Source: a virus | DNA: 23,252 nucleotides | Strand: one strand, 5' to 3' | Virus record (IMG/VR): IMGVR_UViG_3300030412_000051 | Coordinates: 1-23,252 of that record | Part shown: piece by piece, positions 1,928 through 22,953 of the stretch | Layout: each line of letters opens with the position of its first letter | Position numbering within the stretch: the first letter of the stretch is position 1 | The notes under the pieces: model-generated | The model's input: only the letters and a program-made list of their open reading frames with translations | Told to the model about the DNA's origin: nothing | Databases searched by the model: none | Made by a program: the position numbers and the translations under genes

Positions 1928-1951
1928 TAAGTTCTCCCCCCCTACTAAGGA
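1928..1951 (+). promoter_or_regulatory. Candidate phage RNA-polymerase promoter, copy 1 (phi6.5-like position)
   Basis: A 24-base element with core CTCCCCCCCTACTAAGGA (1934-1951) lies nine bases after the exonuclease stop. The same 24 bases, with one mismatch (T1933 versus A), recur at 20141-20164. Its length is close to the 23-bp promoters of T7-type single-subunit RNA polymerases. Its place, between the exonuclease and the first short late gene, corresponds to T7 phi6.5. Function and strand are inferred; no polymerase gene is in the window to help define specificity. Confidence 0.5.
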
Positions 1952-1969
1952 CTCTTCCTCTCGTTTGTG

Positions 1970-2004
1970 TCCCCCTCTGTACTGAAAGGTGCAGGGGGAT
2001 TTTT
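1970..2004 (+). terminator. Stem-loop with T-run downstream of the exonuclease (terminator or RNA-processing hairpin)
   Basis: TCCCCCT (1970-1976) pairs with AGGGGGA (1993-1999). After a two-base CT bulge, GTAC pairs with GTGC including one G-U pair, closing the loop TGAAAG. Five T residues follow at 2000-2004, the layout of a Rho-independent terminator. Because a promoter-like element lies just upstream, it could instead be a 5' leader hairpin or RNase III-type processing site, as T7 has at R6.5. It ends 12 bases before the next start codon. Confidence 0.65.
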
Positions 2005-2016
2005 ATAAGGAAACAA

Positions 2017-2214
2017 ATGGACGACTATATACCCGGAAACATTCCTGAACTCATTGAGTTACTTGAGAGAGTATTCCCTGACAAATGCGCAGACCTGAAC
2101 GATTCAGAAAGACACATCTTCTATAAGGCGGGGCAGCACAATGTGGTCACATGGTTGAAGGATTTAAAGAGACGGACTGAGGAACAACAACTAAATTCAA
2201 TGATGGAAAAATAA
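2017..2214 (+). CDS. Small conserved phage protein, 65 aa, function unknown
   Basis: A short acidic N-terminal part (IPGNIPELIELLERVFPDKCADL) is followed by NDSERHIFYKAGQHNVVTWLKDLKRRTEEQ. The 'ERVFPDxCxDL ... AGQxxVVxWL' pattern resembles small proteins I have seen encoded between exonuclease and portal in T7-like phages; no function is known to me. It appears largely helical and soluble, with no signal or membrane segment. A good ribosome binding site (AAGGAAA, six to seven bases before ATG) follows the stem-loop, so this is probably the first gene of the middle/late transcript starting near 1930-1950. The stop codon directly abuts the next ATG at 2215. Confidence 0.8.
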   Translation: MDDYIPGNIPELIELLERVFPDKCADLNDSERHIFYKAGQHNVVTWLKDLKRRTEEQQLNSMMEK

Positions 2215-2424
2215 ATGTGTCTCGCAAAACTATTGGTAGATAACGTAGACAAGCTTCCTGCCGTACAGCTAGGCAAGAAGGTTTTCAAGTCAGACAAAGA
2301 ACCCGACACCCCACCCCCAGCTCAAGATGAAACCAAGACAAAGAAACAAGGTCGCGGTAATCACAAAGATAAAGGGCTAAGTATCAACACCGCTTCGAGC
2401 GGCTTAAGGATTAACAATCAATAA
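2215..2424 (+). CDS. Small virion-type protein A, 69 aa, with shared C-terminal motif (T7 gp6.7/7.3-like)
   Basis: The protein begins MCLAKLLVDNVDKL, passes through a proline- and lysine-rich low-complexity middle (PDTPPPAQDETKTKKQGRG) and ends GLSINTASSGLRINNQ. The C-terminal pattern, a KK-Q/R cluster then a hydrophobic-Lys/Ser-Ile-Asn/Asp strand and SSGLxI, recurs in the next two genes and recalls the end of T7 gp7.3 (SSGGGINI). T7 gp6.7 and gp7.3 are small virion proteins ejected into the host, and gp6.7 also starts with Met-Cys as I recall it. I therefore infer a minor virion component, but no catalytic domain is visible. The gene starts right after the upstream stop with only a weak purine-rich site and overlaps the next start as TAATG, pointing to coupled translation. 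Confidence 0.72.
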   Translation: MCLAKLLVDNVDKLPAVQLGKKVFKSDKEPDTPPPAQDETKTKKQGRGNHKDKGLSINTASSGLRINNQ

Positions 2425-2642
2425 TGTGTCTATCTAACATTTTCGGAGGAGGCGCACCTAAGCTACCCCCTCCCGTAGTAGCTCCTGAACCAGTAAAACA
2501 ACCCACCCCCACATTCGGTTCAGCAAATGAAACACTTAACAGCGACAAGAACGCACGTGCTAAGAAGCGTGGCTCCAGCGGCTTTAAGATTGACCTTCAA
2601 TCAACAGGTACAGAGTCCGGCTTAAATATCGGTGCAGCTTAA
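2424..2642 (+). CDS. Small virion-type protein B, 72 aa, with shared C-terminal motif
   Basis: The sequence reads MCLSNIFGGGAPKLPPPVV, a proline-rich linker (PEPVKQPTPTFGS), then KKRGSSGFKIDLQSTGTESGLNIGAA. N-terminal Met-Cys, a Gly/Pro-rich middle and the KK-R ... FKID ... SGLxI ending match the preceding gene, suggesting that the two are paralogues or share a targeting tag. It resembles small T7-group virion proteins such as gp6.7 and gp7.3 in composition, size and location before the portal gene. No membrane segment or enzyme motif is present, and the protein should be largely disordered. Start and stop overlap both neighbours as TAATG, so expression is probably tied to theirs. Function is inferred, not established. 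Confidence 0.75.
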   Translation: MCLSNIFGGGAPKLPPPVVAPEPVKQPTPTFGSANETLNSDKNARAKKRGSSGFKIDLQSTGTESGLNIGAA

Positions 2643-3274
2643 TGGGCCTGTTCGGTAAGAAAGAAACCCCGCTATATAAAGGCCAGACTTACCGCAGACA
2701 AGTGGTATCTGACATCTCCGCTTATTCAAGCGCATGGCGTGGTGGAGACTCAGCCTACACAGTAGGTTCAGATTATAAAGCCAGTGGTTACACGCCGGGT
2801 ACTGGAGGTGCGTATCGAGGTCAAGACCAACCCGTCTATAACTCAGCACGCCTTACCACCAATTCCTTGTATAGAGTCGATGATGGCTCATATCTCCAGA
2901 ACCAAGAAGTATTACAAAGTGGTCGCGGAAACCTAGGCGCAACGAATCAGCCCAATACCTATTCACAACTAGGTGTAAGTAAGAATGAATCAAACGCTAT
3001 CGTGCGTTACGTAGAAGACCCTAACGGTGACTACGGTGTAACAGGTTATGACGGACAGTCACCTACAGGGTTCGCTAGTCTCCGTAAGTTCGATATTCAA
3101 AGTACATCAAAGAACGCAGCACAGAAAGCCGCAGCCGCAGGGCCACGGGGCGAACCTGTCTCCACATCAATCTCACAAACAGCCAAGAAGCGTAAATCAT
3201 CTGTAGGTACTTCTAAATTCAAAATAGACATTGGAGGTACTACACGTAGCTCCGGCCTAGGAATCCCTACATGA
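2642..3274 (+). CDS. Virion-type protein C, 210 aa, with the same C-terminal motif; function unknown
   Basis: The protein starts MGLFGKKETPLYKGQTYRR and is rich in Gly, Ser, Tyr, Asn and Gln through its middle (for example GYTPGTGGAYRGQDQPVY and SGRGNLGATNQP), a composition typical of extended structural proteins. It ends KKRKSSVGTSKFKIDIGGTTRSSGLGIPT, the same KK-R ... FKID ... SGLxI ending as protein B. I do not recognise a named family for the body. The position immediately before the portal and the shared tail with two small T7 gp6.7/7.3-like proteins suggest a minor head-tail or ejected protein. It overlaps protein B by TAATG and the portal gene by ATGA, so the block 2215-4782 looks like one translationally coupled unit. 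Confidence 0.75.
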   Translation: MGLFGKKETPLYKGQTYRRQVVSDISAYSSAWRGGDSAYTVGSDYKASGYTPGTGGAYRGQDQPVYNSARLTTNSLYRVDDGSYLQNQEVLQSGRGNLGATNQPNTYSQLGVSKNESNAIVRYVEDPNGDYGVTGYDGQSPTGFASLRKFDIQSTSKNAAQKAAAAGPRGEPVSTSISQTAKKRKSSVGTSKFKIDIGGTTRSSGLGIPT

Positions 3275-4782
3275 CGACATTAAAGGCACGCTATAGTGCG
3301 TTACAGCCCTCACGGGAACCCTTCTTAAGACGGGCTAGAAGTGCAGCTGAACATACCCTGCCAAAGCTTATCCCACCAGAAGGTTCAACAAGTTCGACCA
3401 CCTTTAAATCTCAATATCAAAGCGTAGGCGCACATGGTGTCACCACCTTAGCCGCCAAGTTACTGATAGCTTTACTACCTCCGGGACACCCTTTCTTTAA
3501 ACTAGATGTGGATAAACACACACTGGCTGAAATAGCTGGGGATGATGAGGCGAGAGCTGAGTTCGACAAAGCCATGAGTGATGTCGAGCAGACTATTCTA
3601 GCTTATATCGAGTCCTCCCCTCTTAGAACATCAACCTTTGAAGTATTGAAGCACTTATTAGTAGCAGGTAACGTCTTGCTCTATAAGCCACCTTCTTCTC
3701 CTACGGGTGATGTACGTGTGTACGACCTATCCAAGTATGTCGTCAAGCGTGATGCAGCTGGTAATTTATTGGAATGCGTACTCAAGGAAACAATCAGCCC
3801 CACAGTTCTTCCAGAAGAAATACGGGCCGCTTGTGGGTGTGACGTTCAGTCTCATAAGGAAACCAAAGACGTTGACCTATATACGGGAATGCGCCGGGAC
3901 GGAGACCGCTGGCTAGTTACGCAAGAGATTAACGACATTGCCGTACCTAACGCACGAGATGAATATCCTCTGGACAAGAACCCTTGGATAGTGTTACGTC
4001 TTCAGAAGATAGACGGTGAGAACTTTGGACGTGGATATGTCGAAGATTATTTAGGTGACTTAATATCACTAGAAGGTCTTATGAAAGCTATCGTAAAGGG
4101 TAGTGCAGCCGCCGCTAAAGTACTCTTCTTTGTAGCCCCCAACTCAGTAACGAAAGCCACGGACTGCAACAAAGCGGCTTCAGGTGCATTCGTTACAGGT
4201 AATGCGCAGGATATTACAACGCTCGGGCTAGATAAGTTTGCTGACTTCCGAGTAGCACTAGAAACCATTGACCGTATCGAGCGGCGATTAGGCGCAGCAT
4301 TTATGCTGAACGGTAGCGTTCAACGTGAAGCAGAGCGTGTAACCGCTGAAGAAGTACGGTTCATGGCAAGAGAATTGGACGATGCCCTTGGTGGTATTTA
4401 TTCGATACTAGCTCAGGAGTTCCAGTTACCGTTGATTAAGCGGGTTATGACTGACATGGTTTCCCTAGGCAGATTGCCAGAACTACCTGAAAGCTTAATG
4501 AACCCTGTCATCGTGACAGGACTCGACGCATTAGGTCGCACATCAGACCTTGCCAAGCTTGATAACTTGGTACGCGACATCTTTGCCCTGTCTCCTGAAA
4601 TAGCAAGTAAGTATGTGAACCTTAGTAACTATATTAAACGACGAGGTGCTTATCTCCGAATTGATACAGACGGTTTAATACGTTCGCAAGAAGAAGTTGA
4701 ACAGGCAGACCAGCAAGCTCAGATGCAGCAAATGATGCAACAAATGGCCCCGCAGATGATGCAAGGCTCCCCTCAATCTTAA
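3271..4782 (+). CDS. Portal (head-tail connector) protein, T7 gp8-like, 503 aa
   Basis: The portal ring occupies one capsid vertex, nucleates procapsid assembly with the scaffold, docks the terminase and later carries the tail. Collinear matches to T7 gp8 are plain: the region SQYQSVGAHGVTTLAAKLL, LKHLLVAGNVLLY, YVVKRDAAGNLLE, DGENFGRGYVEDYLGDLISLE, then VQREAERVTAEEVRFMARELDD and GGIYSILAQEFQLPLIKR. The C-terminus is Gln/Met-rich (QQAQMQQMMQQMAPQMMQ), a common low-complexity end in this family. Length is slightly below T7 gp8 (536 aa). The ATG overlaps the upstream stop (ATGA). It is followed after nine bases by the repeat microgene. Confidence 0.97.
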   Translation: MTTLKARYSALQPSREPFLRRARSAAEHTLPKLIPPEGSTSSTTFKSQYQSVGAHGVTTLAAKLLIALLPPGHPFFKLDVDKHTLAEIAGDDEARAEFDKAMSDVEQTILAYIESSPLRTSTFEVLKHLLVAGNVLLYKPPSSPTGDVRVYDLSKYVVKRDAAGNLLECVLKETISPTVLPEEIRAACGCDVQSHKETKDVDLYTGMRRDGDRWLVTQEINDIAVPNARDEYPLDKNPWIVLRLQKIDGENFGRGYVEDYLGDLISLEGLMKAIVKGSAAAAKVLFFVAPNSVTKATDCNKAASGAFVTGNAQDITTLGLDKFADFRVALETIDRIERRLGAAFMLNGSVQREAERVTAEEVRFMARELDDALGGIYSILAQEFQLPLIKRVMTDMVSLGRLPELPESLMNPVIVTGLDALGRTSDLAKLDNLVRDIFALSPEIASKYVNLSNYIKRRGAYLRIDTDGLIRSQEEVEQADQQAQMQQMMQQMAPQMMQGSPQS

Positions 4783-4791
4783 GGATTAAAC

Positions 4792-4971
4792 ATGGCACGC
4801 GCTAAGAAAGTAACACCAGAAGTAACACCAGAAGTAACACCAGAAGTAACTCCAGAAGTAACTCCAGAAGTAACACCAGAAGTAACACCAGAAGTAACTC
4901 CAGAAGTAACACCAGAAGTAACACCAGAAGTAACACCAGAAGTAACCCAAACAATCCGTAAGGACAATTAA
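4792..4971 (+). CDS. Microgene for a (VTPE)11 repeat peptide, 59 aa
   Basis: The ORF reads MARAKK, then eleven exact Val-Thr-Pro-Glu units, then VTQTIRKDN and a TAA stop. It has one of the best ribosome binding sites in the window (AAGGA at 4781-4785, six bases before ATG), sits exactly in the gap between portal and scaffold, and its end carries the scaffold gene's Shine-Dalgarno (AAGGA at 4960-4964). Frame is kept through all eleven 12-bp units and synonymous ACA/ACT changes occur, both favouring a translated gene. The product should be an extended, acidic, disordered rod between basic ends (ARAKK and IRKDN). No function is known to me. A tethering or decoration peptide of the procapsid, or simply a slippage-prone spacer, are possibilities. 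The scaffold contains a related DEVTIPED stretch. Confidence 0.75.
   Translation: MARAKKVTPEVTPEVTPEVTPEVTPEVTPEVTPEVTPEVTPEVTPEVTPEVTQTIRKDN
4810..4941 (+). repeat. 12-bp tandem repeat (minisatellite), 11 units
   Basis: Unit GTAACACCAGAA starts at 4810 and repeats every 12 bases until 4941; units 4, 5 and 8 have ACT in place of ACA, and a degenerate twelfth unit begins at 4942. The repeat is in frame with the microgene and encodes VTPE. Confidence 0.98.
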
Positions 4972-4973
4972 AA

Positions 4974-5762
4974 ATGGCAGCAAACGAGACCGCTCCAGAA
5001 GCCGGAAGTGAAGAATATAACAACCAGATGATTGCCGTTACCGAAGGTGCAGCCACCTCTGACGACATTCCAGCAGCAGTAGAACAAGCCACCAAACCTG
5101 AAGCAGTACCTGATAAATTCTGGGATGCTGATAATGGTGTCGTGGATTATGCAGCTTGGGGTAAATCAACAAGTGAGCTTGAAGCAAAGTTCACCGAAAG
5201 CAACCAAGAAGCAGCTGACGATGTAACTGACGAAGTAACAATCCCGGAAGACGCTCCTATCACACAAGAGTCGTTTGACCGTTACACGCAAGAGTTCCAA
5301 GAAACCCAAGAACTAAGCGAAGATTCGTATGCTGAACTAGCTAAAGCAGGTATCCCCAAAGCGTATGTAGATGCCTACGTGGAAGGTCAACGTGCTTTGG
5401 TCGAAGCAACAGAAAGCAACTTGCTATCTGGTGCAGGTTTTACAGACCGTGACTCATTCGACGCAGCTTCTAAATGGGCAGCAGCTAATATGGCTCCAAA
5501 CGCTATCGCTAAGTTTAATGCTGATACATCCAGTGGTGATAACGCAGTTGTAAGTGCAGCTTTGGCAGAACTAGCTAAGGCATTTAGTGCAGCTAAAGGT
5601 ACTACAGCCTCTACCTTATTGACAGGTGAGCAAGCTCCGGCGGCATTCTCTGGGTTTAAATCTAACCACGAGATGACGACAGCAATGTCTGACCCGCGTT
5701 ATGCAAAAGACCCCGCGTATCGCGCTCAAGTCATGCAGAAATTAGCACAGTCACAATTCTAA
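4974..5762 (+). CDS. Capsid assembly scaffolding protein, T7 gp9-like, 262 aa
   Basis: The protein is acidic, Ala- and Glu-rich and without Cys, as expected for an internal scaffold that guides capsid assembly and is lost before DNA packaging. The region around residues 45-73 (VPDKFWDADNGVVDYAAWGKS then ELEAKF) matches the recognisable block of T7-type scaffolds (P-x-KFxD-x-DGxxD followed by a LExKF helix). A predicted helical middle (FDRYTQEFQETQELSEDSYAEL, AGIPKAYVDAYVEGQRAL) and a C-terminal helix-turn-helix-like segment (DPRYAKDPAYRAQVMQKLAQSQF), usually the capsid-binding end, follow. The order portal, scaffold, capsid supports the call. The Shine-Dalgarno AAGGA lies nine bases upstream, inside the preceding repeat microgene. 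Length is somewhat below T7 gp9 (about 307 aa). Confidence 0.93.
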   Translation: MAANETAPEAGSEEYNNQMIAVTEGAATSDDIPAAVEQATKPEAVPDKFWDADNGVVDYAAWGKSTSELEAKFTESNQEAADDVTDEVTIPEDAPITQESFDRYTQEFQETQELSEDSYAELAKAGIPKAYVDAYVEGQRALVEATESNLLSGAGFTDRDSFDAASKWAAANMAPNAIAKFNADTSSGDNAVVSAALAELAKAFSAAKGTTASTLLTGEQAPAAFSGFKSNHEMTTAMSDPRYAKDPAYRAQVMQKLAQSQF

Positions 5763-5937
5763 GAACAACCCCGCTCCACCCCTCCGCAGTACCCCCCTCA
5801 ATAACTCTCCAAGTTCCAAAGACACACATGCCCCGTGAGCGGGATAACGTGTGAAAGCTCTATGCAATATAGGACGAGTTGAGACCAACGCCGTTAATTC
5901 GGTTTATATCCCAACTTTAAAATAAAGGAAGTTCAAC
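5763..5937 (+). promoter_or_regulatory. Structured leader of the major capsid gene, with promoter-like C-tract
   Basis: This 175-base gap has three visible elements. A C-tract at 5792-5797 within AGTACCCCCCTCAATAA (from 5788) resembles the duplicated 24-bp element and sits at the T7 phi10 position. A stem-loop follows: CCCG (5832-5835)-TGAG-CGGG (5840-5843), with outer arms CACAC (5823-5827) and GTGTG (5849-5853). A second foldable region runs from GTTGAGA (5878-5884) to TCCCAAC (5909-5915), with CCG/CGG inside. The gene start has AAGGAAG six bases before ATG. Only an eight-codon ORF (5829) is present, which I do not call. Confidence 0.5.
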
Positions 5938-6864
5938 ATGGCAAATGCCACAGTATCACGTACAGGTCAGGTCAACTCAGCAGGTGACGCTACAGCGTTA
6001 TTCTTGAAAGTATTTGCTGGTGAAGTCTTAACATCATTCTCTAACGCCAATGTGATGATGGACAAGCACATGGTTCGTACTATCGCTAATGGTAAATCAG
6101 CACAGTTCCCTGTCATCGGCACAGCTACTGCTAGTTACCACACGCCGGGTACAGAGATTACAGGCCAGTCAATCAAAGGTAACGAACGAGTAATCACTAT
6201 TGATGACTTGCTTATTGCCGATGTCTTCATGGCTAACATTGATGAAGCAATGGCTCACTATGACTTACGTAGCCCGTATGCGAATGAATTAGGTATCGTC
6301 TTAGCTAACACTATGGATGCCAACATTCAGCAAGTTATGGCCTTAGCAGCACGTGCCTCAGCTACTGTCACAGGTGGTAACGGCGGTACTCAGTTAACCA
6401 ACGCTGGTTATGCGACCACTGGTTCAACAATCGCTTCAGGTATCTTTGAGGCCGCGCAGGTATTAGATGAGAAGAATGTCCCGTCTCAAGACCGTAAGTG
6501 TAACTTAAAGCCAGCACAGTATTACTTGCTTGCTCAAACTACCAGCGTCTTGAATAAAGACTGGGGTGGTCAAGGTTCTTATTCTGAAGGTTCAGTTATT
6601 AAAGTAGCTGACGTTGAGATTGTTAAGACTAACCAGCTACCATCTACAGTAGTCGCTACAGGCCCAACAGCTTATCAAGGTACTTTCACTAATACTTCAG
6701 GCTTGGTTTATCACCCTTCAGCCGTAGGTACAGTTAAGTTACTTGACTTGGCTATCGAAGACCAATATGACGTTCGCCGTCAAGGTTCTTTGGTTGTCGC
6801 TAAGTACGCTGTAGGTCACGGTATCTTACGACCTGAATGTGCAGTAGAGCTTCTTAAAGCTTAA
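5938..6864 (+). CDS. Major capsid protein, T7 gp10-like, 308 aa
   Basis: The main shell protein, with the HK97 fold in this family. It starts MANATVSRTGQVNSAGDATALFL and continues with the conserved block FAGEVLTSFSNANVMMDKHMVRTI, GKSAQFPVIGTATASYHTPGTEI, and NERVITIDDLLIADVFMANIDEAM. Next come YANELGIVLANTMDANIQQVMAL and, near the C-terminus, EDQYDVRRQGSLVVAKYAVGHG with the ending LRPECAVELL. This order is characteristic of T7-group capsid proteins, and the length (308) is close to T7 gp10A (345 aa). I see no slippage site or extended second frame for a gp10B-like product, because a terminator follows at once. It is expected to be the most expressed gene of the window: dedicated leader, strong ribosome binding site, own terminator. 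Confidence 0.97.
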   Translation: MANATVSRTGQVNSAGDATALFLKVFAGEVLTSFSNANVMMDKHMVRTIANGKSAQFPVIGTATASYHTPGTEITGQSIKGNERVITIDDLLIADVFMANIDEAMAHYDLRSPYANELGIVLANTMDANIQQVMALAARASATVTGGNGGTQLTNAGYATTGSTIASGIFEAAQVLDEKNVPSQDRKCNLKPAQYYLLAQTTSVLNKDWGGQGSYSEGSVIKVADVEIVKTNQLPSTVVATGPTAYQGTFTNTSGLVYHPSAVGTVKLLDLAIEDQYDVRRQGSLVVAKYAVGHGILRPECAVELLKA

Positions 6865-6870
6865 TCAGTT

Positions 6871-6908
6871 AAACCCCATGGGGCTATCTTCGGATGGCCC
6901 CTTTTTTT
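6871..6908 (+). terminator. Strong Rho-independent terminator with UUCG tetraloop after the capsid gene (Tphi-like)
   Basis: GGGGCTATC (6880-6888) pairs over nine positions, including one G-U pair, with GATGGCCCC (6893-6901) around a TTCG loop; seven T residues follow at 6902-6908. The UUCG loop makes the hairpin very stable. T7 has its main terminator Tphi at the same place, after gene 10. CCCC just upstream (6874-6877) could pair with the GGGG of the 5' arm and give a competing fold that may tune read-through into the tail genes. Confidence 0.92.
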
Positions 6909-6923
6909 ACAAATGGAATCAAA

Positions 6924-7517
6924 ATGGCAACTACAAGTAACCTGCACACCTCCGCTCTTAACGCTATAAACACGATGTTAGGCACTATCGGTCAGTCACC
7001 CGTTTCAAGCTTAGAGACTCCGGGATTAGTTGATGCGGTGGTTGCTAAGTCAATGTTAGCAGAAGTAACCAGAGACTTTCTCTCTGAGGGTTGGAACTTT
7101 AATACCGACTACGATTATGAATTAGCCCCGGATGCTGATGGATTTATAGCCCCCGGCAGCAACGTCCTTGAAATAGACACCACCCCTGAGTACCGCGCTT
7201 ATGATGTCGTACTCCGTGGATACAGGCTATGGGACAAGGCAAGCAAGACATACCTATTTAGCAATGCATTGAAATTCAATATTACATGGTTGTTAGATTT
7301 TGAAGAAATACCAGAAGCAGCTAGACGATATATCACAATACGAGCTAGCCGCACGTTCCAAGATAGAGTACTGGGAAGTGACACCATACACGCCTATACG
7401 CAGAGCGACGAGAACCGAGCGCGTGCCGCTGTTGAACGTGCTGAGAACAAATCAAGCAACCCTAATATCTTCGACTCTGAAGATGTGTATGGAATCATTG
7501 ACCGAGATAATTACTAA
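6924..7517 (+). CDS. Tail tubular protein A, T7 gp11-like (gatekeeper), 197 aa
   Basis: It forms the ring joining portal to nozzle in T7-like tails. Features seen: LHTSALNAINTMLGTIGQSPVSSLE near the N-terminus, VVAKSMLAEVTRDFLSEGWNFNTD, the NVLEIDTT strand, and YITIRASRTFQDRVLGS followed by the Asp/Glu-Arg-rich helix ENRARAAVERAENKSSN. This order fits the T7 gp11 family. Length equals the T7 protein (196 aa) if ATG 6924 is used. An upstream in-frame ATG at 6894 lies within the terminator stem, so it is rejected. GGA seven bases before 6924 is a weak ribosome binding site. The stop overlaps the tail tubular B start as TAATG, which implies coupled synthesis of the two tail-tube partners. Confidence 0.93.
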   Translation: MATTSNLHTSALNAINTMLGTIGQSPVSSLETPGLVDAVVAKSMLAEVTRDFLSEGWNFNTDYDYELAPDADGFIAPGSNVLEIDTTPEYRAYDVVLRGYRLWDKASKTYLFSNALKFNITWLLDFEEIPEAARRYITIRASRTFQDRVLGSDTIHAYTQSDENRARAAVERAENKSSNPNIFDSEDVYGIIDRDNY

Positions 7518-9568
7518 TGGCAACAGCTTATGGAACCACGTTAAAGAATACGTCTATACCCAGCCTATACAATGGCGTGTCTGAGCAACCCGCAAGTCTA
7601 CGCCTACCCTCTCAATGTGAGCTACAGGAGAATGGCTACCCGTCTCTAGTTGATGGACTGAAGAAAAGACCTTCATCGGAATTTATAGCTAAGCTGGACG
7701 CACTTAATGACGACACACGTTTAGTCCACTTTATCAACCGTGACGCTTCTGAACGCTATGTTGTCATGTTAGGTGACGGGACATTAACAATCCACGACCT
7801 AGCAGGAAACGCTAAGACAGTTAACTTCACAGCTCCCGCCTCCTACCTTGATTGTACAGACCCAAGGCAAGAACTAGCTATTATGACGGTAGCCGACTTC
7901 ACGTTCCTTGTGAATAAAACAACAGTAACAGCTATGGATGCCGCTGTCACAGTAGGTACAGCTAAAGGAGCCAAGCAGGTTTTCAGTGAGCTTCCTACTT
8001 CCGGCATGACGCTGAATGACGTGTACAAGATAGAAGGTGATGCAAATAACACCTTTGATAACTACTATGTCAGATGGAATGGAAGCACGTGGGAAGAGAC
8101 GACTGAGGTAGGTATCGAATATAAGTTCGACGCTTCTACCATGCCTCACCAACTCACGCGGGAACCTGATGGCACATTTACTTTTGATGTCATAGACTGG
8201 GCTGAACGCGCTGTTGGAGATGTCGATTCTGTACAACAGCCTAGCTTTGTTGGACGTACAGTTACCGATATATTCTTACACCGTAACCGATTAGGTTTCC
8301 TATCAGGCGAGAATGTAATTCTATCAACAGCTCCAGCAAGTGACTTCAGCTTCTGGAAGGAGTCAGCTACGACCATCATTGACTCTGACCCTATAGATAC
8401 CCCAGCTGGTCACTCTAAGGTATCAACTCTCTATCACGCCTCAGCGTTCGATAGGTCATTGGTACTGTTCTCTGAGCAGACTCAGTTCATCTTGTCAGCT
8501 CCAAATACCCTAACGCCACACACAGCCACGCTAGATGTATCGACAGAGTTTGAAGCGAGTCCTTTCTGTCACCCTGCCAGTGCTGGGCCTAATCTCTATT
8601 TCACCGTACCCCGTGGCTCTCATACCGCAGTACGTGAATACTTCGTCCAGAATGACGTTACCACTAATGATGCAGCCGATATAACAGCGCATGTTCCTAA
8701 CTACCTCCCTTCAGGTGTCTACGACTTAACCTCCAGTTCTAACGAGGATATTCTATTCGCACTATCCACTGAAGAACGTAATGCTATGTGGACATACAAG
8801 TTCTATTGGCAAGCGGATGAGAAGGTTCAATCATCTTGGGGTAAATGGACGTTCGATGAGGACGACATTATTCTTGGTATGGGTATGGTTCATTCTGATA
8901 TGTATCATGTTACCCAGCGACCTGATGGAACCTACCTTGAACGGACGACACTCAATGGTGGCGTGGTCGATACAGGAATGAACGTCAAGTTCCTGTTAGA
9001 TAGACGTACCGAACTGACAGGTTCTTACGACTCAGGGACTAACGAAACAACCTGGACTCTTCCGTATGAGTATGAAGGTGTCGTCGAGGCTGTCTTAGGC
9101 TCCACGTATGGTACAAGCGCAGGTAAGCGGCTATCCCTAACCAATGTAACCCCAACAACATATAAGGCTACAGGTAACTTCTCAAGCGGTATCGCCTACG
9201 TAGGACTACCCTTCACCTTCCGTTACCGCTTTAGTGAACAGATGATGAGAGATGGTAGCAACAATGCGATTAGAGATGGACGCTTAATGCTACGTCAATT
9301 CGCTGTCAACTATACCGATACTGGTTACTTCAAGATAACGGTATCCCCTGACTATCGAGATGTATACACCTATGAGTTCACCGGGAAGATTCTAGGTACA
9401 GGTGGCTTCTTACTAGGCGCACTCCCTATCAGCTCAGGCTCATTCAAATTCCCTATCATGTCTGACTCAACACAGGTATCTATTGAAATCACCAATGACT
9501 CACCTCTCCCCTCAATCTTCCAATCCGCAGAATGGGTTGGCCTATTCCACTCGAAATCCTCACGTTAG
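7517..9568 (+). CDS. Tail tubular protein B (nozzle), T7 gp12-like, 683 aa
   Basis: The nozzle is the beta-propeller-rich hexamer at the tail tip through which DNA leaves. The N-terminus is typical of gp12: SIPSLYNGVSEQPASLRLPSQC and ENGYPSLVDGLKKRPSSEF. Further family blocks are PSFVGRTVTDIFLHRNRLGFLSGENVILS, SDFSFWKESATTIIDSDPID, the LVLFSEQTQFILS segment, and the C-terminal region with WGKWTFDEDDI and RDGRLMLRQFAVNYTDTGYF. T7 gp12 is longer (794 aa); the difference is spread through the middle and not an obvious truncation. Translation starts at the TAATG overlap with the A subunit. The 3' end overlaps the gp13-like gene in another frame. Confidence 0.95.
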   Translation: MATAYGTTLKNTSIPSLYNGVSEQPASLRLPSQCELQENGYPSLVDGLKKRPSSEFIAKLDALNDDTRLVHFINRDASERYVVMLGDGTLTIHDLAGNAKTVNFTAPASYLDCTDPRQELAIMTVADFTFLVNKTTVTAMDAAVTVGTAKGAKQVFSELPTSGMTLNDVYKIEGDANNTFDNYYVRWNGSTWEETTEVGIEYKFDASTMPHQLTREPDGTFTFDVIDWAERAVGDVDSVQQPSFVGRTVTDIFLHRNRLGFLSGENVILSTAPASDFSFWKESATTIIDSDPIDTPAGHSKVSTLYHASAFDRSLVLFSEQTQFILSAPNTLTPHTATLDVSTEFEASPFCHPASAGPNLYFTVPRGSHTAVREYFVQNDVTTNDAADITAHVPNYLPSGVYDLTSSSNEDILFALSTEERNAMWTYKFYWQADEKVQSSWGKWTFDEDDIILGMGMVHSDMYHVTQRPDGTYLERTTLNGGVVDTGMNVKFLLDRRTELTGSYDSGTNETTWTLPYEYEGVVEAVLGSTYGTSAGKRLSLTNVTPTTYKATGNFSSGIAYVGLPFTFRYRFSEQMMRDGSNNAIRDGRLMLRQFAVNYTDTGYFKITVSPDYRDVYTYEFTGKILGTGGFLLGALPISSGSFKFPIMSDSTQVSIEITNDSPLPSIFQSAEWVGLFHSKSSR

Positions 9569-10512: not shown

Positions 10513-10514
10513 GC

Positions 10515-12905: not shown

Positions 12906-12924
12906 CAATAAACAAGGAAACTAA

Positions 12925-15900
12925 ATGGAACTGAACCTTCAATCTCCTGATTTACAACAGGAGCCAATCGCTCCTCAGATAGAGGATATACCGTTACATG
13001 CGACCCCTCTTCCCAATCTATCGGACGAAGCCGTAGCTCAAGCCGATATTGCAAGACAGCAGGTTGAAGGTCAGACTACTTATGATGACTTTAAGGCGGC
13101 GGTCAAAGACCAAGATTTTATCTTACCTGCATTAGACCATGTACTTAATGAGCATAACTTCCCTGTAGATGTTAACTGGCAAGGCCCAACTCCTGAAATG
13201 CTTGAAGAAGCTAAAGTTCCACAAGACATGCAGCCCATGCTTTATAACACCTTAAGCGAAGACCACTACATGAAGCAGCTTGGTGAGCTTCAGAACGCTA
13301 TGGCTAATGAGCAGACTATTGAAGACTATGGCGTTAAAGGTGCTTGGTTACGATTTGGTATGAACCTTCTCGACCCCGGCAACTTAGCTATAGCAGCTAC
13401 ACTTCCTTTAGCTGAAGTAGGCGTACCTGAAGCATTGATGATGCATAAGCTAGGCCGTCTTGGTTCGGCAGTTCGCGGTGGTATCTTAGCGGGAGCTGAG
13501 AATGCTGGAGTACAAGCTTTAATTAACGAAGCTAACCCCTTAGGTACAAACGAAGATGTCGCTTATGCAGCCTTGTTCGGGATTGGCTTTGGTGGTGCTG
13601 TAGGTGGCGCATTTCACCGTAACACTTCACAGGTCATAGAGGATAATGCCTTGCAAGTTATTCGGGCTATTGACGAAAAGAACAGTAAAGCAACTGTAGG
13701 TGGTAACGCAGGTGCGGCTGAAGTATCTGGCCCAGCAGCGAACCAATCACTAGCAGATAACCCCTTGACTCCTGAAGAACTTAACGCTCCTGAAGCTGTT
13801 ATGAGTAAATTCCGCTTTGACTCTGCCAGTCAGGTGGCTAATTCAGGTATGGATTCAGCACGTAAAGCTGGTAACGACCTCATGGAAGACGCGGTAGGTA
13901 AGAAGGGACACGCACTTAACTCCGAAGGTGGTGCAGCAAGTGCCATTCAAAGACAGACGTACAAGGCGTGGAATATCGACATGCGTAAATCAGTCGAACC
14001 CCATGTAGCTGAGTACAAGAAGTCTCTTCCGATACAAGAACGATTCCTTCACCCTATTAAGATACGGGAAGACTTCTTCCGTCAAGTCACTAGACATATC
14101 GAACTGGAAGATAGTGTTAACCCTCAAGTACAGAAAGCAGCTGATGGCTTCCGTGATTTATATGCACGTATGCTAGATGAACAACAAGGCGCTAAAGTAT
14201 TCGGTTCAGATGCTATCCCTAAAGATAGACGGTATACACCTCACATCTGGGAACCTCAACGTGTCCGGGCTATGGTCGATGAGACTAATGTAGCTACGGT
14301 ATCTCGTTTGTTTCAACTAGCCATGACTAAAGGTGTCGACGTTTCTCCAGAAGAAGCTGTCTACTTTAAACGTGTTGCAGACTCTTTAGTTAAGAAGTTT
14401 GACAATAGGGCTTCGGCTGTTGATGACATGCAGGGATTCCATCTAAACCTGACCGATGCTGAAGAACTTAAGGTTCTTATGCGTGATGTTGGTGAGGAGA
14501 TGGATGATGATGTAATTGAAACCATTGTCAACTCAGTACTCAAGAAGCAGCGTGATGTCGGTAAAGCGTCTCACTTAAAGAGACGTATGGACTTAGATAT
14601 GTCGGCTTCAGTTCTTCACCCTAAAACTGGTAAGGAATTAACTTTATACGACCTCATTGAAACAGACGCTGAGAAAGCAGCCTTAAGATACATGCAGAAG
14701 GCTTCAGGATTGGTGGGACTGGCTCGTAAAGGTTATGGCAATACTAAGTCAGCTACGGCAGATATAGCGGCCTTAAAACAGCGTATAGAGAACGAGGGAC
14801 GTACTAAAGGTATTGATAAAGATACTATCGACAGAACCCTTAATAACATCTCTGTCACAGCTGATAACATCTTAGGCAAACCTATGGACACCCTTCAACG
14901 AACTGCCGGAGGTCGTGCTTTACGCGCAGCCACTGATGCAGCTTTTATTCGCTTCATGGGACAAACAGGAGCCGCTTCAGTAGCCGAGCTAGGCCAAGCA
15001 ATAGGGTACGCAGGGGTTATCAACGCAGTACGTCAATTAGCCCCTTCAATGCACCGAGCGTTCGATAGAATGGCTGTAGGTGACGATGTATCTAAAACCT
15101 TAAGTACCGAGCTGGAAGCAGTAGGTGCATGGGGTGGACACCGTCTTAACAATCAGGTTAGCTCGCGCTATAACGACCATGATGTCGAGTTCTTAAGTAG
15201 CTCGTTCAGACGACTGGATGCTGGGCTTCAGATTGGTAAACAGCTGACAGTTAAGTATTCAGGGCTAGGTCTTATCACTGACTTCTCACAGGAGTTCGCA
15301 GCTAGAGCCTTATCGCAAAAGCTATACAACCAAGCAATGCGCGCTGGGACTGGCAGCTTCGAAGATGTATGGAAGAAAGACTGGAAACGCTTTCATTTAT
15401 ATGGATTAAGCAAGCCAAAGGCAGAGAAGATATTCGCTCAGATTCGTAAGCACTCAGAAGGTACTAAGTCCAAATACTTCAAGACTGAAAAGCTAGGTAG
15501 ATTCAACTTGGATAAATGGGATAAGACTGAGCTAGATGATTTTACGCACGTGATGTTCAGGATGGTAACACATGCCGTTCAGGAAACTGACGTAGGTAAT
15601 ATGGCCTCATGGATGCATAAAGATTTAGCAAAAGCATTTATGCAGTTCCGTAGCTTTGTCGCAGGTTCGTACACACGGGCCACACTCAATGGTATCCACA
15701 TGAGAGACACTCAAGCAGCTGTAGGCTTTACTGCTTCAATGGCATTCGGTTGGGTGTCATACATGGCACAACAGCATATCAACTCAGTGGGTAAGGAAGA
15801 CGGTTGGCTTGAGAGACGTATAGAGACTGACCGTCAACTGGCAGCTCTCTATAGTCGTTCAGCATTCGCCTCCTTCACTCCAGCAATCATGGACTTCTTT

Positions 15901-16161
15901 CTTGAGCTAGGCGGTCAAGACCAAGTATTCAATCACACACGTTCTTCAGGACAATCTCAGTTAACTCTACCCGCTTGGGAGATGCTTAACAGTGCGAGGT
16001 CTCTAGGACAGATAGGTGCTTCGGCTATTACACCACGCGAAGTTACTGAGGGTGACATGGATTCAGCAATGGGCCTACTTCCTAACATGTGGATATTCCG
16101 TAACGTAACAGCAGCAATCGACGAAGGTTTCGACCTCCCTCAACAACAACAGGATAATTAA
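12925..16161 (+). CDS. Internal core/ejection protein, T7 gp16-like, 1078 aa, without a visible transglycosylase domain
   Basis: Largest gene here and last of the internal proteins. After a Pro/Gln/Glu-rich start (about residues 1-40) there is a helical segment and a hydrophobic region at about 145-235 (LRFGMNLLDPGNLAIAATL, LGSAVRGGILAGAENAG, AALFGIGFGGAVGGAFHR), likely membrane-interacting. A long helical body follows. Towards the end are WMHKDLAKAFMQFRSFVAGSYTRA and FGWVSYMAQQHINSVG, and the end WIFRNVTAAIDEGFDLPQQQ. T7 gp16 is 1318 aa and begins with a lytic transglycosylase; I see no such motif here, and the protein is about 240 residues shorter, consistent with absence of that domain. 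Good ribosome site (AAGGAAA). It probably forms the inner-membrane part of the ejection tunnel. Confidence 0.9.
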   Translation: MELNLQSPDLQQEPIAPQIEDIPLHATPLPNLSDEAVAQADIARQQVEGQTTYDDFKAAVKDQDFILPALDHVLNEHNFPVDVNWQGPTPEMLEEAKVPQDMQPMLYNTLSEDHYMKQLGELQNAMANEQTIEDYGVKGAWLRFGMNLLDPGNLAIAATLPLAEVGVPEALMMHKLGRLGSAVRGGILAGAENAGVQALINEANPLGTNEDVAYAALFGIGFGGAVGGAFHRNTSQVIEDNALQVIRAIDEKNSKATVGGNAGAAEVSGPAANQSLADNPLTPEELNAPEAVMSKFRFDSASQVANSGMDSARKAGNDLMEDAVGKKGHALNSEGGAASAIQRQTYKAWNIDMRKSVEPHVAEYKKSLPIQERFLHPIKIREDFFRQVTRHIELEDSVNPQVQKAADGFRDLYARMLDEQQGAKVFGSDAIPKDRRYTPHIWEPQRVRAMVDETNVATVSRLFQLAMTKGVDVSPEEAVYFKRVADSLVKKFDNRASAVDDMQGFHLNLTDAEELKVLMRDVGEEMDDDVIETIVNSVLKKQRDVGKASHLKRRMDLDMSASVLHPKTGKELTLYDLIETDAEKAALRYMQKASGLVGLARKGYGNTKSATADIAALKQRIENEGRTKGIDKDTIDRTLNNISVTADNILGKPMDTLQRTAGGRALRAATDAAFIRFMGQTGAASVAELGQAIGYAGVINAVRQLAPSMHRAFDRMAVGDDVSKTLSTELEAVGAWGGHRLNNQVSSRYNDHDVEFLSSSFRRLDAGLQIGKQLTVKYSGLGLITDFSQEFAARALSQKLYNQAMRAGTGSFEDVWKKDWKRFHLYGLSKPKAEKIFAQIRKHSEGTKSKYFKTEKLGRFNLDKWDKTELDDFTHVMFRMVTHAVQETDVGNMASWMHKDLAKAFMQFRSFVAGSYTRATLNGIHMRDTQAAVGFTASMAFGWVSYMAQQHINSVGKEDGWLERRIETDRQLAALYSRSAFASFTPAIMDFFLELGGQDQVFNHTRSSGQSQLTLPAWEMLNSARSLGQIGASAITPREVTEGDMDSAMGLLPNMWIFRNVTAAIDEGFDLPQQQQDN

Positions 16162-16163
16162 TA

Positions 16164-17159
16164 ATGGCAAAGTCATACGTTGACTACCCCGGTAACTCGT
16201 CTACTACTTCGTGGACAGTTACCTTTCAGTTCCTCTCACGGGACGATGTAAGTGTGTTTGATGTTTCAGATGATTCACCTATTGCCTTTACATGGCTGAG
16301 TGACTCTTTAATCTCAATCTCACCCGCAGTATCTTCAGGAACCACATTCCGTATTAAACGTACTACCAATACTGATAGTCGTGTCGTGGACTTCCAGAAT
16401 GCCACAGTATTAGATGAAGCTCAGTTAGATGCTTCAGCTGACCAGAACTTCTTCATTGCTCAAGAGATTAATGATGACTCTGAAGATAAGATGGCATTGG
16501 TCGCTGACGGTACGTTCGATGCTAGAAGTAAACGCATCTCAGACCTAGCCGACCCTGTTAATCCACAGGATGCTGTAACTCTATCTCACTTCGTAGCTGT
16601 AGGTGATGTGTATGCCGCTACAGCCGCTCAAAATGTAATAGACACAGAAACAGCAAGGGACGATGCAGAGACCGCTCAGGTAGCAGCAGAAGCCGCTCAG
16701 TTAGATAGTGAGACCGCTAGAGATGAAGCTGAGGTAGCGCAGGCAGCGGCAGAGGTGGCACAGGCAGCAGCTGAAGCTACTCTCGACCACAACCATGACG
16801 CTGATTATGAACCTATTGATACTGCCATTCTACGTGGTGACACAACAAGCAACGTGACTGTGGGCTTCACTACTGATATTGAGGTGTTAGCTTCCGACAC
16901 TATCACGCCTAACATGGCACTTGAAACCCTCAAGACTCGTAGCGTAACGGGTAACGTAACTATCAATGTACCCACAGGTGGTAATGGTGTCTGTGAAATC
17001 TTACTCACTATCGACGGGACAGACCGCACAATCACAGCAGGAACCAATGTGAAAGCAATCGGCGTAGTTCCCCTGCTCGCAGCTAGTGCTGTTTATTCCT
17101 TAGTTGTTACACGCTATTCAGCAACTAACGCAACCATGCAGATTCAGGAGGCCGTTTAA
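16164..17159 (+). CDS. Tail fibre/adaptor protein with T7 gp17-type N-terminal domain, 331 aa
   Basis: Residues about 1-150 match the tail-attachment domain of T7 gp17: SYVDYPGNSSTTSWTVTFQF, IKRTTNTDSRVVDFQNATVLDEAQLD, and FDARSKRISDLADPVNPQDAVTLS. A trimeric coiled coil of Glu/Ala/Asp repeats follows at about 165-208 (ETARDDAETAQVAAEAAQ and so on), then a beta-rich C-terminal domain (GNVTINVPTGGNGVCEILLTI, AIGVVPLLAASAVYSLVVTRYS) of a kind common at phage tail-protein ends. The product is shorter than T7 gp17 (553 aa) and lacks an obvious receptor-binding tip, so it is best read as an adaptor that carries the next gene's product. AGGA lies eight bases before ATG; the stop overlaps the next ATG as TAATG. 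Confidence 0.9.
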   Translation: MAKSYVDYPGNSSTTSWTVTFQFLSRDDVSVFDVSDDSPIAFTWLSDSLISISPAVSSGTTFRIKRTTNTDSRVVDFQNATVLDEAQLDASADQNFFIAQEINDDSEDKMALVADGTFDARSKRISDLADPVNPQDAVTLSHFVAVGDVYAATAAQNVIDTETARDDAETAQVAAEAAQLDSETARDEAEVAQAAAEVAQAAAEATLDHNHDADYEPIDTAILRGDTTSNVTVGFTTDIEVLASDTITPNMALETLKTRSVTGNVTINVPTGGNGVCEILLTIDGTDRTITAGTNVKAIGVVPLLAASAVYSLVVTRYSATNATMQIQEAV

Positions 17160-19399
17160 TGTTACACCCTAGATTGTTACCTAATAGTGGATACGACATT
17201 GCTAACAGTGCTGTGTTCACAGCTGAAGGGACGGACTATCTACACCGAACCAATGCGACCACAGGTGATGACCCTTTAAAGTTTACGGTATCAGCTTTTA
17301 TTAAAAGAGCTACGATAGCTGACGCATATACAGTCATACTTGGAAGCAACACAGGCAATAACGCTTTTGATTTTGTAGCCGTTGATTCAGACCAGTTCGG
17401 GCTACGAATGCGTAACTCATCGGGTGTCGACCAAACGAGAATTGTAAGTGAGGGTTACTTACGGGACACGGCTAGTTGGTATCATCTGGTCGCTGTATAC
17501 GACAGCGCTAACGCTACAGAAGCTGACAGAGTTAAGTTGTACATCAGTAACGAAGAAGTTACCGACTTCGCCTATAGTAACTACCCGGCTCTTGACGCAG
17601 TACCGAACGGTAACTTCTTAACTGAAATGCAGATAGGTCGTACAAACTTAGCAGCAGCATCATTCTATTATGCTTCGTTCTATATGGCAGAGCTTCACTT
17701 CATTGATGGACAAGCGTTAACCCCAGATGATTTTGCACAACTAGACCCCACCACAAACCAATGGGTAGCAAAGAAATACCAAGGCACTTACGGTACAAAT
17801 GGTTTCTATCTCAACTTCGAGAACGGGGCTGATTTAGGTGAGGATAGCTCAGGTAATGGTAATGACTTCACCAATGTTGGCGTGACGCAATCTACAGATA
17901 CGCCTACTAACAATCATGCTACATTAAACACTTTGATGGCAACCTCAGTATCAAACACTTCATTCTCAAATGCTGGTCGCACTATGGCAGAGTTTGCAGA
18001 TACTTATAGTTACTACGGACTTTCTACGGTCGGCATGACGCAAGGTAAGTATTATTTTGAGGCGCTTATAAATACCTTCTCAAACGCTTCAATACGTATA
18101 GGTATATCTAACAGCCAGAATATCGACTCTTCTAATGTAGTAATATATCACATGGTAGGGCAGTTTGAGACGGAAGGTGTGACCGACACCTCCCCTGCAT
18201 CAAGCGCAGCAAGTGATGTAATTGGCGTGGCGGTAGACCTAGATACTAACGATATTGAGTATTTCAAGAACGGTGTATCACTTGGTGCTAAATCATTTAC
18301 TACAGGTGAATGGTTTGCGCATTGCAGGGTTTACGCTAACAGTGGCGGCGCGGGTAAAGCGACATTCCTATTCACAGAAGATTCTTGGACTTATTCAGCC
18401 CCTTCGGGTTACAAAGCATTATCGTCTAAAAACCTACCCGAACCTGAAATAACAAAGCCTAACCTTCAGTTCACACCTGTTATCTATGATGATGGCGCGG
18501 GAGCTAAGACAGTAGGCTTTCAACCTGATTTAGTGTGGTTTAAATCACGTGGAAGTGCATACGACCATAAGCTTGTTGATAGTGTACGCGGAGCAACAAA
18601 AGCAATCTCTACAAATATACGAAGCGTAGAAGCAACTGACACAACAGGCTTAACCTCGTTCGATAGTAACGGTTTTACTGTTGGTGCTGATACTGATTAC
18701 TCGGATACTACCGGGTTAGGTATGGTCGCTTGGTGCTGGAAGGACGGTATCACAGCAGGTTTTGACATTGTTACAGGGACGAAGACAGTCACTAATGAAG
18801 CGTTTAGTCACTCCCTTGGTATTACACCTGATTTGATGATTTTCTTCACAACGACAGACTCTGTAACTGCTAACGTCTTGTATCACCATGAAGCAAATGT
18901 AGTACCAAAAGATGGTGGACTTGTCTTAGACAACACGGCAGCATGGTCTAACTCTACAGCTTACTGGAATGACACAGCCCCGACGACAACGCAATTCACG
19001 GTAGGCTCTAACGTGGGTGGTTCTTCGGAATCCTTTATCGCGTACCTATTTGCAGAAGTAGAAGGGTTCAGTAAGTTTGGTAGTTATGTCGGCAATGGTT
19101 CTACCGATGGGCCGTTTGTTTATCTTGGATTCAAACCTGCCTTGGTCATAGTTAAACGTGTTGATGCTACAGCAAACTGGCACATGCTCGACAGCTCACG
19201 CAGCAACATAAACCCGCTAGAAGACACCTTATACCCGAACCAGTCAGACGCAGAAGCGGTATCGTCGGGCAACATCTTAGATACCCTTTCCAATGGGTTC
19301 AAAGTAAGAGGCTCCAGCAGCGCAGTAAACACGAACAGCGGTGATTATGTCTACATGGCTTTTGCCGAATCCCCTTTTAAATACTCAACAGCGAGGTAA
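17159..19399 (+). CDS. Receptor-binding tail protein with LamG-like and SPRY-like modules and three C-terminal repeats, 746 aa
   Basis: Residues about 15-215 look like a LamG/concanavalin-type jelly roll (FTVSAFIKRATI ... WYHLVAVYDSANATEADRVKLYISNEEV ... MQIGRTN ... YMAELHFIDGQALTPDDF). Residues about 275-425 look SPRY-like (GKYYFEALI, IRIGISNS, VIGVAVDLDTNDIEYFKNGVSL, EWFAHCRVY). The C-terminal third holds three repeats of roughly 100 residues with 'G-x-x-P-x-L-V/M' near 452, 553 and 656 and 'NGFxVG ... YMAFAE'-type ends, resembling the DUF7483-type ends of marine phage fibres. It probably recognises host surface glycan, though the target cannot be told. A strong AGGAGG seven bases upstream lies within the fibre gene, and the start overlaps its stop (TAATG). 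Confidence 0.85.
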   Translation: MLHPRLLPNSGYDIANSAVFTAEGTDYLHRTNATTGDDPLKFTVSAFIKRATIADAYTVILGSNTGNNAFDFVAVDSDQFGLRMRNSSGVDQTRIVSEGYLRDTASWYHLVAVYDSANATEADRVKLYISNEEVTDFAYSNYPALDAVPNGNFLTEMQIGRTNLAAASFYYASFYMAELHFIDGQALTPDDFAQLDPTTNQWVAKKYQGTYGTNGFYLNFENGADLGEDSSGNGNDFTNVGVTQSTDTPTNNHATLNTLMATSVSNTSFSNAGRTMAEFADTYSYYGLSTVGMTQGKYYFEALINTFSNASIRIGISNSQNIDSSNVVIYHMVGQFETEGVTDTSPASSAASDVIGVAVDLDTNDIEYFKNGVSLGAKSFTTGEWFAHCRVYANSGGAGKATFLFTEDSWTYSAPSGYKALSSKNLPEPEITKPNLQFTPVIYDDGAGAKTVGFQPDLVWFKSRGSAYDHKLVDSVRGATKAISTNIRSVEATDTTGLTSFDSNGFTVGADTDYSDTTGLGMVAWCWKDGITAGFDIVTGTKTVTNEAFSHSLGITPDLMIFFTTTDSVTANVLYHHEANVVPKDGGLVLDNTAAWSNSTAYWNDTAPTTTQFTVGSNVGGSSESFIAYLFAEVEGFSKFGSYVGNGSTDGPFVYLGFKPALVIVKRVDATANWHMLDSSRSNINPLEDTLYPNQSDAEAVSSGNILDTLSNGFKVRGSSSAVNTNSGDYVYMAFAESPFKYSTAR
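18470..19399 (+). repeat. Three diverged protein-level repeats at the end of the receptor-binding gene
   Basis: VGFQPDLVWF (codon 452, base 18512), LGITPDLMIF (553, base 18815) and LGFKPALVIV (656, base 19124) each begin a strand pair. Each unit ends with NGFTVG, TQFTVGS or NGFKVRGSS followed by GMVAWCWKDG, SFIAYLFAEV or DYVYMAFAES. Spacing is 101 and 103 residues. The repeats are clear in protein but not in DNA, so the duplication is old. Boundaries are approximate. Confidence 0.75.
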
Positions 19400-19402
19400 T
19401 AA

Positions 19403-19927
19403 ATGTACCAAGATATTAACGGCAAGACAGGACTATCAAACCTTGTAGGTAATTCAGGCAAGACATACTTTCATATCAAACATCTTAGTAACCCAGAAAG
19501 AGATGAGATGTTAGCTGACGGTATCACTGTATATGTGAAACCCGACCGACCTCAGCCAACGGATGCTCAAGTACTTGTAGCCAGTAAAGATAAGAAGCGT
19601 AACCATGTACGGGAGGGACTAGCTCAGTTCCTCTCAGTTCCCATCCTAGACTCGAATAGTATCCCTTGGGGAGCTGGTTTCGATTCAGCTATAAAGTTAG
19701 ATGCAGCTATGCGTCTTTCAGCTACCTTTGGTGGTACAGAAGTCACCTTCTTTGACGAGAACAACATGCCTCACGTACTGGCACATGAAGAAGCATTAGC
19801 GGTGGTCGGTCTTGTGGCGAATAGCTTCCAGATGGCCTTGGCTACTAAACAATCCTTAATGGCCTCAATAGATTCGGCTGAGACATTAGAGGAACTAAAC
19901 TTAATCACTACCCCTTGGAACCAATAA
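19403..19927 (+). CDS. Tail fibre assembly-type protein, DUF4376-like, 174 aa
   Basis: The N-terminal part (LSNPERDEMLADGITVYVKPDRP) is followed by a basic linker (VASKDKKRNHVREGLAQFL). The C-terminal domain reads like DUF4376: a GFDSAIKLDAAMRLSATF block, VTFFDENNMPHVLAHEEALAVVGLVANSF, and SIDSAETLEELNLI. Proteins with this domain usually lie directly behind phage fibre genes and are thought to act in fibre folding or assembly. The position just after the receptor-binding protein fits. GAGG precedes the ATG. The next gene starts right after the stop (TAA ATG). Domain assignment is by pattern memory, role by context. Confidence 0.75.
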   Translation: MYQDINGKTGLSNLVGNSGKTYFHIKHLSNPERDEMLADGITVYVKPDRPQPTDAQVLVASKDKKRNHVREGLAQFLSVPILDSNSIPWGAGFDSAIKLDAAMRLSATFGGTEVTFFDENNMPHVLAHEEALAVVGLVANSFQMALATKQSLMASIDSAETLEELNLITTPWNQ

Positions 19928-20143
19928 ATGAAAGCATACCTGTTTAATCTACTTATCAGTATCGACCAGTTCTTCAACACGCTATTTCTAGGCAACCCGG
20001 ATGAGACTATCTCATCACGTATGGGTAAAGCTATCCGAGACGGTGAGTGCTGGGGCTGTAGTGTCGTATGTAAAGTATTAGACTTCTTCGACCCCAATCA
20101 TTGTAAGGACTCTATTGAAGAGGACGAACACGCTCCCTATTAA
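19928..20143 (+). CDS. Small phage protein with cysteine cluster, 71 aa
   Basis: The sequence YLFNLLISIDQFFNTLFLGNPDETISSRMGK matches a recurrent family of short phage proteins (pattern DQFxNTLxxGxPDETxSSR) that often lie beside lysis genes; no function is known to me. The C-terminal half carries C41-x2-C44-x3-C48 and H58-C59 (GECWGCSVVCK ... DPNHCK), which could bind a metal or form disulphides. The N-terminal helix is amphipathic to hydrophobic but too polar to be a sure membrane anchor. It follows the fibre-assembly gene with no gap, and its TAA stop is the first three bases of the second copy of the 24-bp promoter-like element. Confidence 0.82.
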   Translation: MKAYLFNLLISIDQFFNTLFLGNPDETISSRMGKAIRDGECWGCSVVCKVLDFFDPNHCKDSIEEDEHAPY

Positions 20144-20164
20144 GTACTCCCCCCCTACTAAGGA
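20141..20164 (+). promoter_or_regulatory. Candidate phage RNA-polymerase promoter, copy 2 (phi17-like position)
   Basis: 24 bases identical to 1928-1951 except A20146, with the 18-base core at 20147-20164. It overlaps the stop codon of the 71-aa gene and lies 115 bases before the holin start, where T7 has phi17 and the lysis/packaging genes. Together with copy 1 it is the strongest evidence for the phage's own late promoter sequence. Confidence 0.5.
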
Positions 20165-20177
20165 ATGCCCCACTCTA

Positions 20178-20240
20178 GATACTATAGATAACTATAAGAT
20201 ACTGTAAGAGTACTGTAGGTTAACTATAAGTTCATAGAGG
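20178..20240 (+). repeat. Helically phased array of ACTRTAR units between the promoter-like element and the holin gene
   Basis: ACTATAG 20181, ACTATAA 20191, ACTGTAA 20201, ACTGTAG 20212 and ACTATAA 20223 are spaced 10, 10, 11 and 11 bases, mean 10.5, one turn of B-DNA. Each is preceded by a G-W/G-T/A run (GATA-, GAGT-, GTTA-); a degenerate sixth unit, GTTCATAGAGG, follows. It is non-coding and AT-rich. It may bind a protein cooperatively or bend DNA. Confidence 0.85.
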
Positions 20241-22843: not shown

Positions 22844-22858
22844 AACCTCCTGTAAGGC

Positions 22859-22926: not shown

Positions 22927-22953
22927 TACCTTCCTGTAACCCTACCTCCACAC

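Follow-up and report, generated by a model that had tools for sequence, protein, structure and literature searches.

In T7-type phages, residue 748 of the RNA polymerase has an established link to promoter specificity (the T7/T3 rule). T7 promoters are read at -17 to -13 (AT-rich), at -11 to -7 by the specificity loop, and at -4 to -1 (PMC10138996), and N748D is among the altered-promoter mutants (PMC5934624). For Pseudomonas phage LUZ100, promoters and start sites, including phi6, were mapped by ONT-cappable-seq (PMC10134795). In both T7 and T3, phi6.5 sits before gene 6.5, and in T3 it overlaps the RNase III site R6.5.

The DNA analyzed here (the window) is a whole IMG/VR contig of 23,252 bp, classed as linear, whose gene content corresponds to the right-hand portion of a T7-like (Autographiviridae) genome. 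It starts inside the DNA polymerase gene, of which it has the 3' part, and it includes neither the RNA polymerase gene nor the early region. Further along are an endonuclease VII-like ORF (635-1159) that overlaps both flanking genes (DNA polymerase and exonuclease), the exonuclease (1137-1919), small genes including one for a gene 6.5-like small protein (phrog_4970; 2017-2214, + strand), the portal (from 3271), the scaffold (from 4974), the capsid (5938-6864) followed by a terminator-like hairpin at 6880, tail tubes and internal proteins, a T7-type tail fibre (PF03906; start at 16164), a DUF7483 protein, an ORF at 19928-20143, the holin (phrog_175, PF04550; 20279-20560, + strand), a gene in the Rz position (phrog_2524), terS, and the terminase large subunit gene terL (21125-22843, + strand), the last with 57-68% identity to autographivirus terL. 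Between the portal and scaffold genes, positions 4808-4946 hold a 12-base tandem repeat encoding a small (VTPE)n protein, and directly 3' of terL is a very stable hairpin (22858-22929; stem of ~18 bp, -38 kcal/mol, z -5.5), possibly a terminator or RNA-processing site. The best isolate relatives (LUZ100, Rhizobium phages, and Roseobacter phages) are 57-60% identical, while megablast against phages found no relative at the DNA level, and tRNA and Rfam searches of the window gave no matches.

Two copies of a 24-bp element lie on the same strand of the window, copy A at 1928-1951 (TAAGTTCTCCCCCCCTACTAAGGA) and copy B at 20141-20164 (TAAGTACTCCCCCCCTACTAAGGA). They are identical at 23 of 24 positions and share the exact 18-mer CTCCCCCCCTACTAAGGA (1934-1951 and 20147-20164); sequence comparison verified this agreement, which a sequence-only reading of the window had reported and had judged very unlikely to arise by chance, and 100 dinucleotide shuffles indeed gave a chance expectation of 0. 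As that reading had also noted, both copies fall in gaps after stop codons. They are intergenic and on the + (coding) strand: copy A begins 8 nt after the exonuclease stop, and the first bases of copy B are the TAA stop of the ORF at 19928-20143. No third copy with three or fewer mismatches is present on either strand of the 23,252-bp window, leaving only two in 23 kb. The exact 18-mer was found in none of the other IMG/VR records searched, a set from which near-identical records may be missing, and the element is not in the sole prophage relative found in genomes (a Hyphomicrobiales MAG, L215). Matches to CCCCCCTACTAAGGA (8 contigs, all without a homologue of the window's proteins) and to TAAGTNCTCCCCCCCT (7 unrelated contigs) were set aside. 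The A/B repeat is almost certainly functional.

Copy A occupies a gap whose equivalent carries promoters elsewhere, the first gene 3' of it being the phrog_4970 gene. Among all fetched genomes with a phrog_4970 gene, 11 have a promoter that recurs in their genome within this gap (RHEph01, TRX32-1, LUZ100, the Roseobacter phages CRP-361, CRP-171, CRP-114, and CRP-125, YIMV22061, BB8, L113, and G009; besides LUZ100, the set spans Rhizobium, Roseobacter, Limnohabitans, and Bordetella phages and uncultured contigs), and in LUZ100 it is the gap of the mapped phi6; ProddE and two pelagiphages have no visible repeated promoter before their phrog_4970 gene. Membership of the downstream gene in the phrog_4970 family is thus shared with LUZ100, RHEph01, and TRX32-1. 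In L112, the closest exonuclease relative, positions 4520-4612 show the same anatomy, with a promoter-like TAAGTTGCAACCTAAGG, a terminator hairpin, and the ATG of the phrog_4970 gene, although the core there is of the GG/GTTGCA type. We therefore regard copy A as the phi6.5 equivalent, as the sequence-only reading had assigned it, with transcription predicted to start near G1949 (range 1947-1951).

Directly 3' of copy A is a hairpin with a T run (1971-2005, + strand), terminator-like or an RNA-processing stem. The repeat could accordingly be read as an element that acts in RNA, in a leader or in processing (an RNase III site, a terminator, or a pause site), and not as a promoter, and both the strength of this hairpin and the RNase III sites at such places in T3 would fit. 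We consider this unlikely, since the hairpin lies outside the 24-mer, copy B lacks it (the fold downstream of B has an unremarkable z of -1.5), and the 24-mer itself is C-rich, contains no stem, and stands where the relatives have their promoter. Still less probable is a functionless duplication, produced by chance or by recombination: it would suit an element found only twice here and an 18-mer found in no other IMG/VR record searched, but not the null chance expectation, the placement of both copies in coding-strand gaps, or the repeated promoter found in the slot of A in 11 relatives. The least probable reading, to which we give very little credence, takes TAAGGA as a Shine-Dalgarno sequence and the repeat as a translation signal, as the occurrence of CCCCCCTACTAAGGA shortly upstream of ATG in unrelated phage contigs might suggest, yet no sizeable reading frame starts 5-12 nt past the element, the hairpin comes next after copy A and the gene beyond begins 66 nt on with its own TATAAGGA, and the ATG that abuts copy B (zero spacing) begins a frame of only 8 codons.

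The preferred reading, by which A and B are late promoters, assigns copy B to the holin, the first gene 3' of it, and to the Rz-like, terS, and terL genes beyond, with a start predicted near G20162 (range 20160-20164). Behind copy B is a degenerate array of 10-11 bp short repeats of the ACTATAAG type (20172-20230, + strand), the only such cluster in the window, which is matched best by the stretches immediately downstream of terL in CRP-125, CRP-114, and L012; in CRP-361, L036, and L040, short-repeat arrays come after the post-terL promoter. Copy B had been equated with T7 phi17, an assignment that fails: it lies ~4 kb downstream of the start of the tail-fibre gene and just before the holin, while phi17 of T7 instead precedes the fibre gene. 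Because the array is of the post-terL type, we describe copy B as a phiOR-like module placed ~2.7 kb before the end of terL, which thereby also covers the lysis and packaging genes. None of the relatives examined has a promoter before the holin, and this displacement of copy B is the single unusual feature of the arrangement. Most relatives have a promoter directly after terL and the window has none there, which, like the low copy number and the placement of B before the holin, counts against a promoter role. Arrays of the ACTATAAG type behind late promoters also occur in L176 (36603-36621) and recall the CCTAAAG repeats near the T7 genome ends; a similar array is present in L226 (291-397), a contig that yielded no homologue of the window's proteins.

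The sequence-only reading had grouped the two copies with weaker C-tract relatives at 5788 and 23041, and mapped the four places onto phi6.5, phi17, phi10, and phiOR, respectively. The window contains four runs of six or more C, all on the + strand and all in large intergenic gaps, and no comparable G run; given this likeness in strand and gaps, the grouping was a natural one, although the four sites turn out to be different things. By local alignment to A/B, the 5788 site ranks ~17-23 and the 23041 site ~89-95 among 2303 windows, so that neither stands as a weaker copy, and only the phi6.5 part of the mapping survives. The 5788 site, a C tract before the capsid gene (AGTACCCCCCTCAATAACTC; 5786-5805, + strand) marked by its C run in the gap, was rejected as a phi10 counterpart: its similarity to the 24-mer is not significant, and most relatives have no promoter before the capsid gene. 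The surrounding capsid leader (5764-5937) corresponds to a region in which relatives (L085, L089, L090, L092, L096-L101, L104, and L110) share the conserved blocks CACACTGC...GCGGTGG and CCCCCTGCGGGGGACAACTTTGTGTG, which look like structured RNA; the window's version is divergent, and its stability is not unusual.

The 23041 site (AATTCCCCCCTTG; 23040-23052, + strand) carries a motif that in relatives reads [A/T]TCCCCCC. In LUZ100 and ProddE, this motif falls close to where the annotated terminal repeats begin; the BB8 record carries it at each end, and ~25 relatives have it 0.2-3 kb past terL. The T7 genome begins ...AAAGTTCCCCCATAGG and the T3 genome ...AAAGTACCCCCCCCATAG. From the occurrence of the motif at the relatives' terminal repeats, we take the 23041 site to be a terminal-repeat (genome end) edge, and the contig end, ~210 nt further on, probably coincides, or nearly so, with that of the terminal repeat. 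This match, together with the low rank against A/B, rules out phiOR at 23041.

Taken together, A and B are very probably late promoters for the phage's own T7-type single-subunit RNA polymerase, encoded outside the contig. Near-identical ~20-bp sites are repeated in coding-strand gaps, and the conserved promoter position is found for A, while B has the downstream repeats of the phiOR type at a different gene position. The earlier proposal of a single-subunit polymerase promoter is thus well supported for the two 24-mers by gene-position homology (LUZ100 and 10 further relatives) and by anatomy. Predicted sigma-70 promoters are in no excess over shuffles, and on the + strand neither A nor B coincides with one. 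Since the contig contains neither the polymerase gene nor the early region, we infer the promoter role from this evidence, and likewise recognition by that polymerase, the exact start, and promoter strength. In the proposed mechanism, the specificity loop of the polymerase would read the C7 tract (roughly -13 to -7, counting the first G of GGA as the start), the TAA just upstream of the start would be melted, and RNA would begin at GGA, at ~1949 for A and ~20162 for B. Transcripts from A would run through the leader hairpin into the gene 6.5-like gene and the virion genes, and those from B through the holin, Rz-like, terS, and terL genes towards the genome end, as phiOR transcripts do in relatives.

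The relatives' promoters used for sequence comparison were those of RHEph01 (AATTACCCCTCCCTTAAGGA), TRX32-1 (AATTACCCCCCACTTAAGGA), LUZ100 (AATTACCACACAGTTATGGA), YIMV22061 (AATTAACCCCCACTAATAGA), and G009 (IMGVR_UViG_3300017991_000192), in which AGACCCCTCCCTCATATAAGGA occurs three times without change, downstream of terL, downstream of the RNA polymerase gene, and ahead of the phrog_4970 gene. Aligned at the start over 20 bases (right-aligned window sequence TACTCCCCCCCTACTAAGGA), A/B match TRX32-1 at 13/14 positions, RHEph01 at 12/13, and G009 at 12/12, with letter-shuffle p values of 0.0003-0.005 that ignore the choice of comparators. In a scan of the whole window with the relatives' motif matrices, the best score at the repeat was 9.9 bits at 20145 (rank 4), not significant against a mean shuffle maximum of 13.1. 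For both reasons, the case rests on position and repetition first and on sequence second. Between the C block and TAAGG, the window has ~3 nt more than RHEph01, which makes the position of the start site uncertain by about as much. It is conceivable, though we think it doubtful, that the polymerase reads a homopolymeric C7 at a block-to-start distance ~3 nt greater than in T3 and RHEph01, a spacing variant common to G009; if so, this shared variant would amount to a promoter subtype of its own.

With +1 placed at the first G of GGA, both copies have C at -11 and -10. In a polymerase alignment, six phages with C at -11 (T3, RHEph01, TRX32-1, LUZ100, YIMV22061, and G009) have an acidic residue, Asp or Glu, where T7 has Asn748, and phages with GG promoters (the CRP phages and contigs related to them, BB8, ProddE, and L203) have Lys there. 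A C-rich promoter is thus a known solution, and the phage's own polymerase is predicted to carry Asp or Glu at this position. The suggestion that the C7 tract may mark a new specificity class is correspondingly weakened: the tract is indeed unlike T7, but T3 (AATTAACCCTCACTAAAGGG), RHEph01, and TRX32-1 are already C-specific, and C-rich promoters, present also in YIMV22061 and G009, are not new. Across uncultured lineages, promoter bases -12/-11 (C or GG) are thereby tied to residue 748 (acidic or lysine), which gives a testable prediction for the polymerase outside the contig. Besides contributing an orthogonal promoter of recognizable group to a family from which expression tools are drawn, the 24-mer offers a sequence handle for locating the missing left arm of this virus.

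Most probably, A and B belong to the already known C-reading group of T7-type late promoters, closest to T3 and the Rhizobium phages. T7 itself shares the phi6.5 gene position of A and, in phiOR, a late promoter that directs transcription towards the genome end, as B would, but its core (CGACTCACTATAGGG) has no C tract, and its phi17 does not precede a holin. LUZ100 (phi1-phi8) has the phi6 gene slot, a start at GGA, and a terminator right after the capsid gene, whereas its core is ATTACCACACAG and only 10-11 of 20 bases are equal. G009 resembles the window in having a C/T-rich block, then 3-4 nt, then TATAAGGA/TACTAAGGA, and a copy before the phrog_4970 gene; however, its block is ACCCCTCCCT instead of C7, and its other copies follow the RNA polymerase gene and terL, with none before the holin. 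T3 has CCC at -11 to -9, ACTAA near the start, a G start, and a gene 6.5 promoter that overlaps an RNA-processing stem, but it lacks the C7 tract, and 9-10 of 20 bases are equal in fixed register. Finally, RHEph01 and TRX32-1 (Paadamvirus) share with A and B the C-rich -12 to -5 region, TAAGGA at the start, and intergenic copies on a single strand, one of which precedes the phrog_4970 gene as copy A does; they differ in having AATTA at -17 to -13 and 7-8 copies, one of them after terL and, in RHEph01, others at the ends of the RNA polymerase and lysozyme genes, whereas the window has C7, TAC at -6 to -4, and a copy before the holin.
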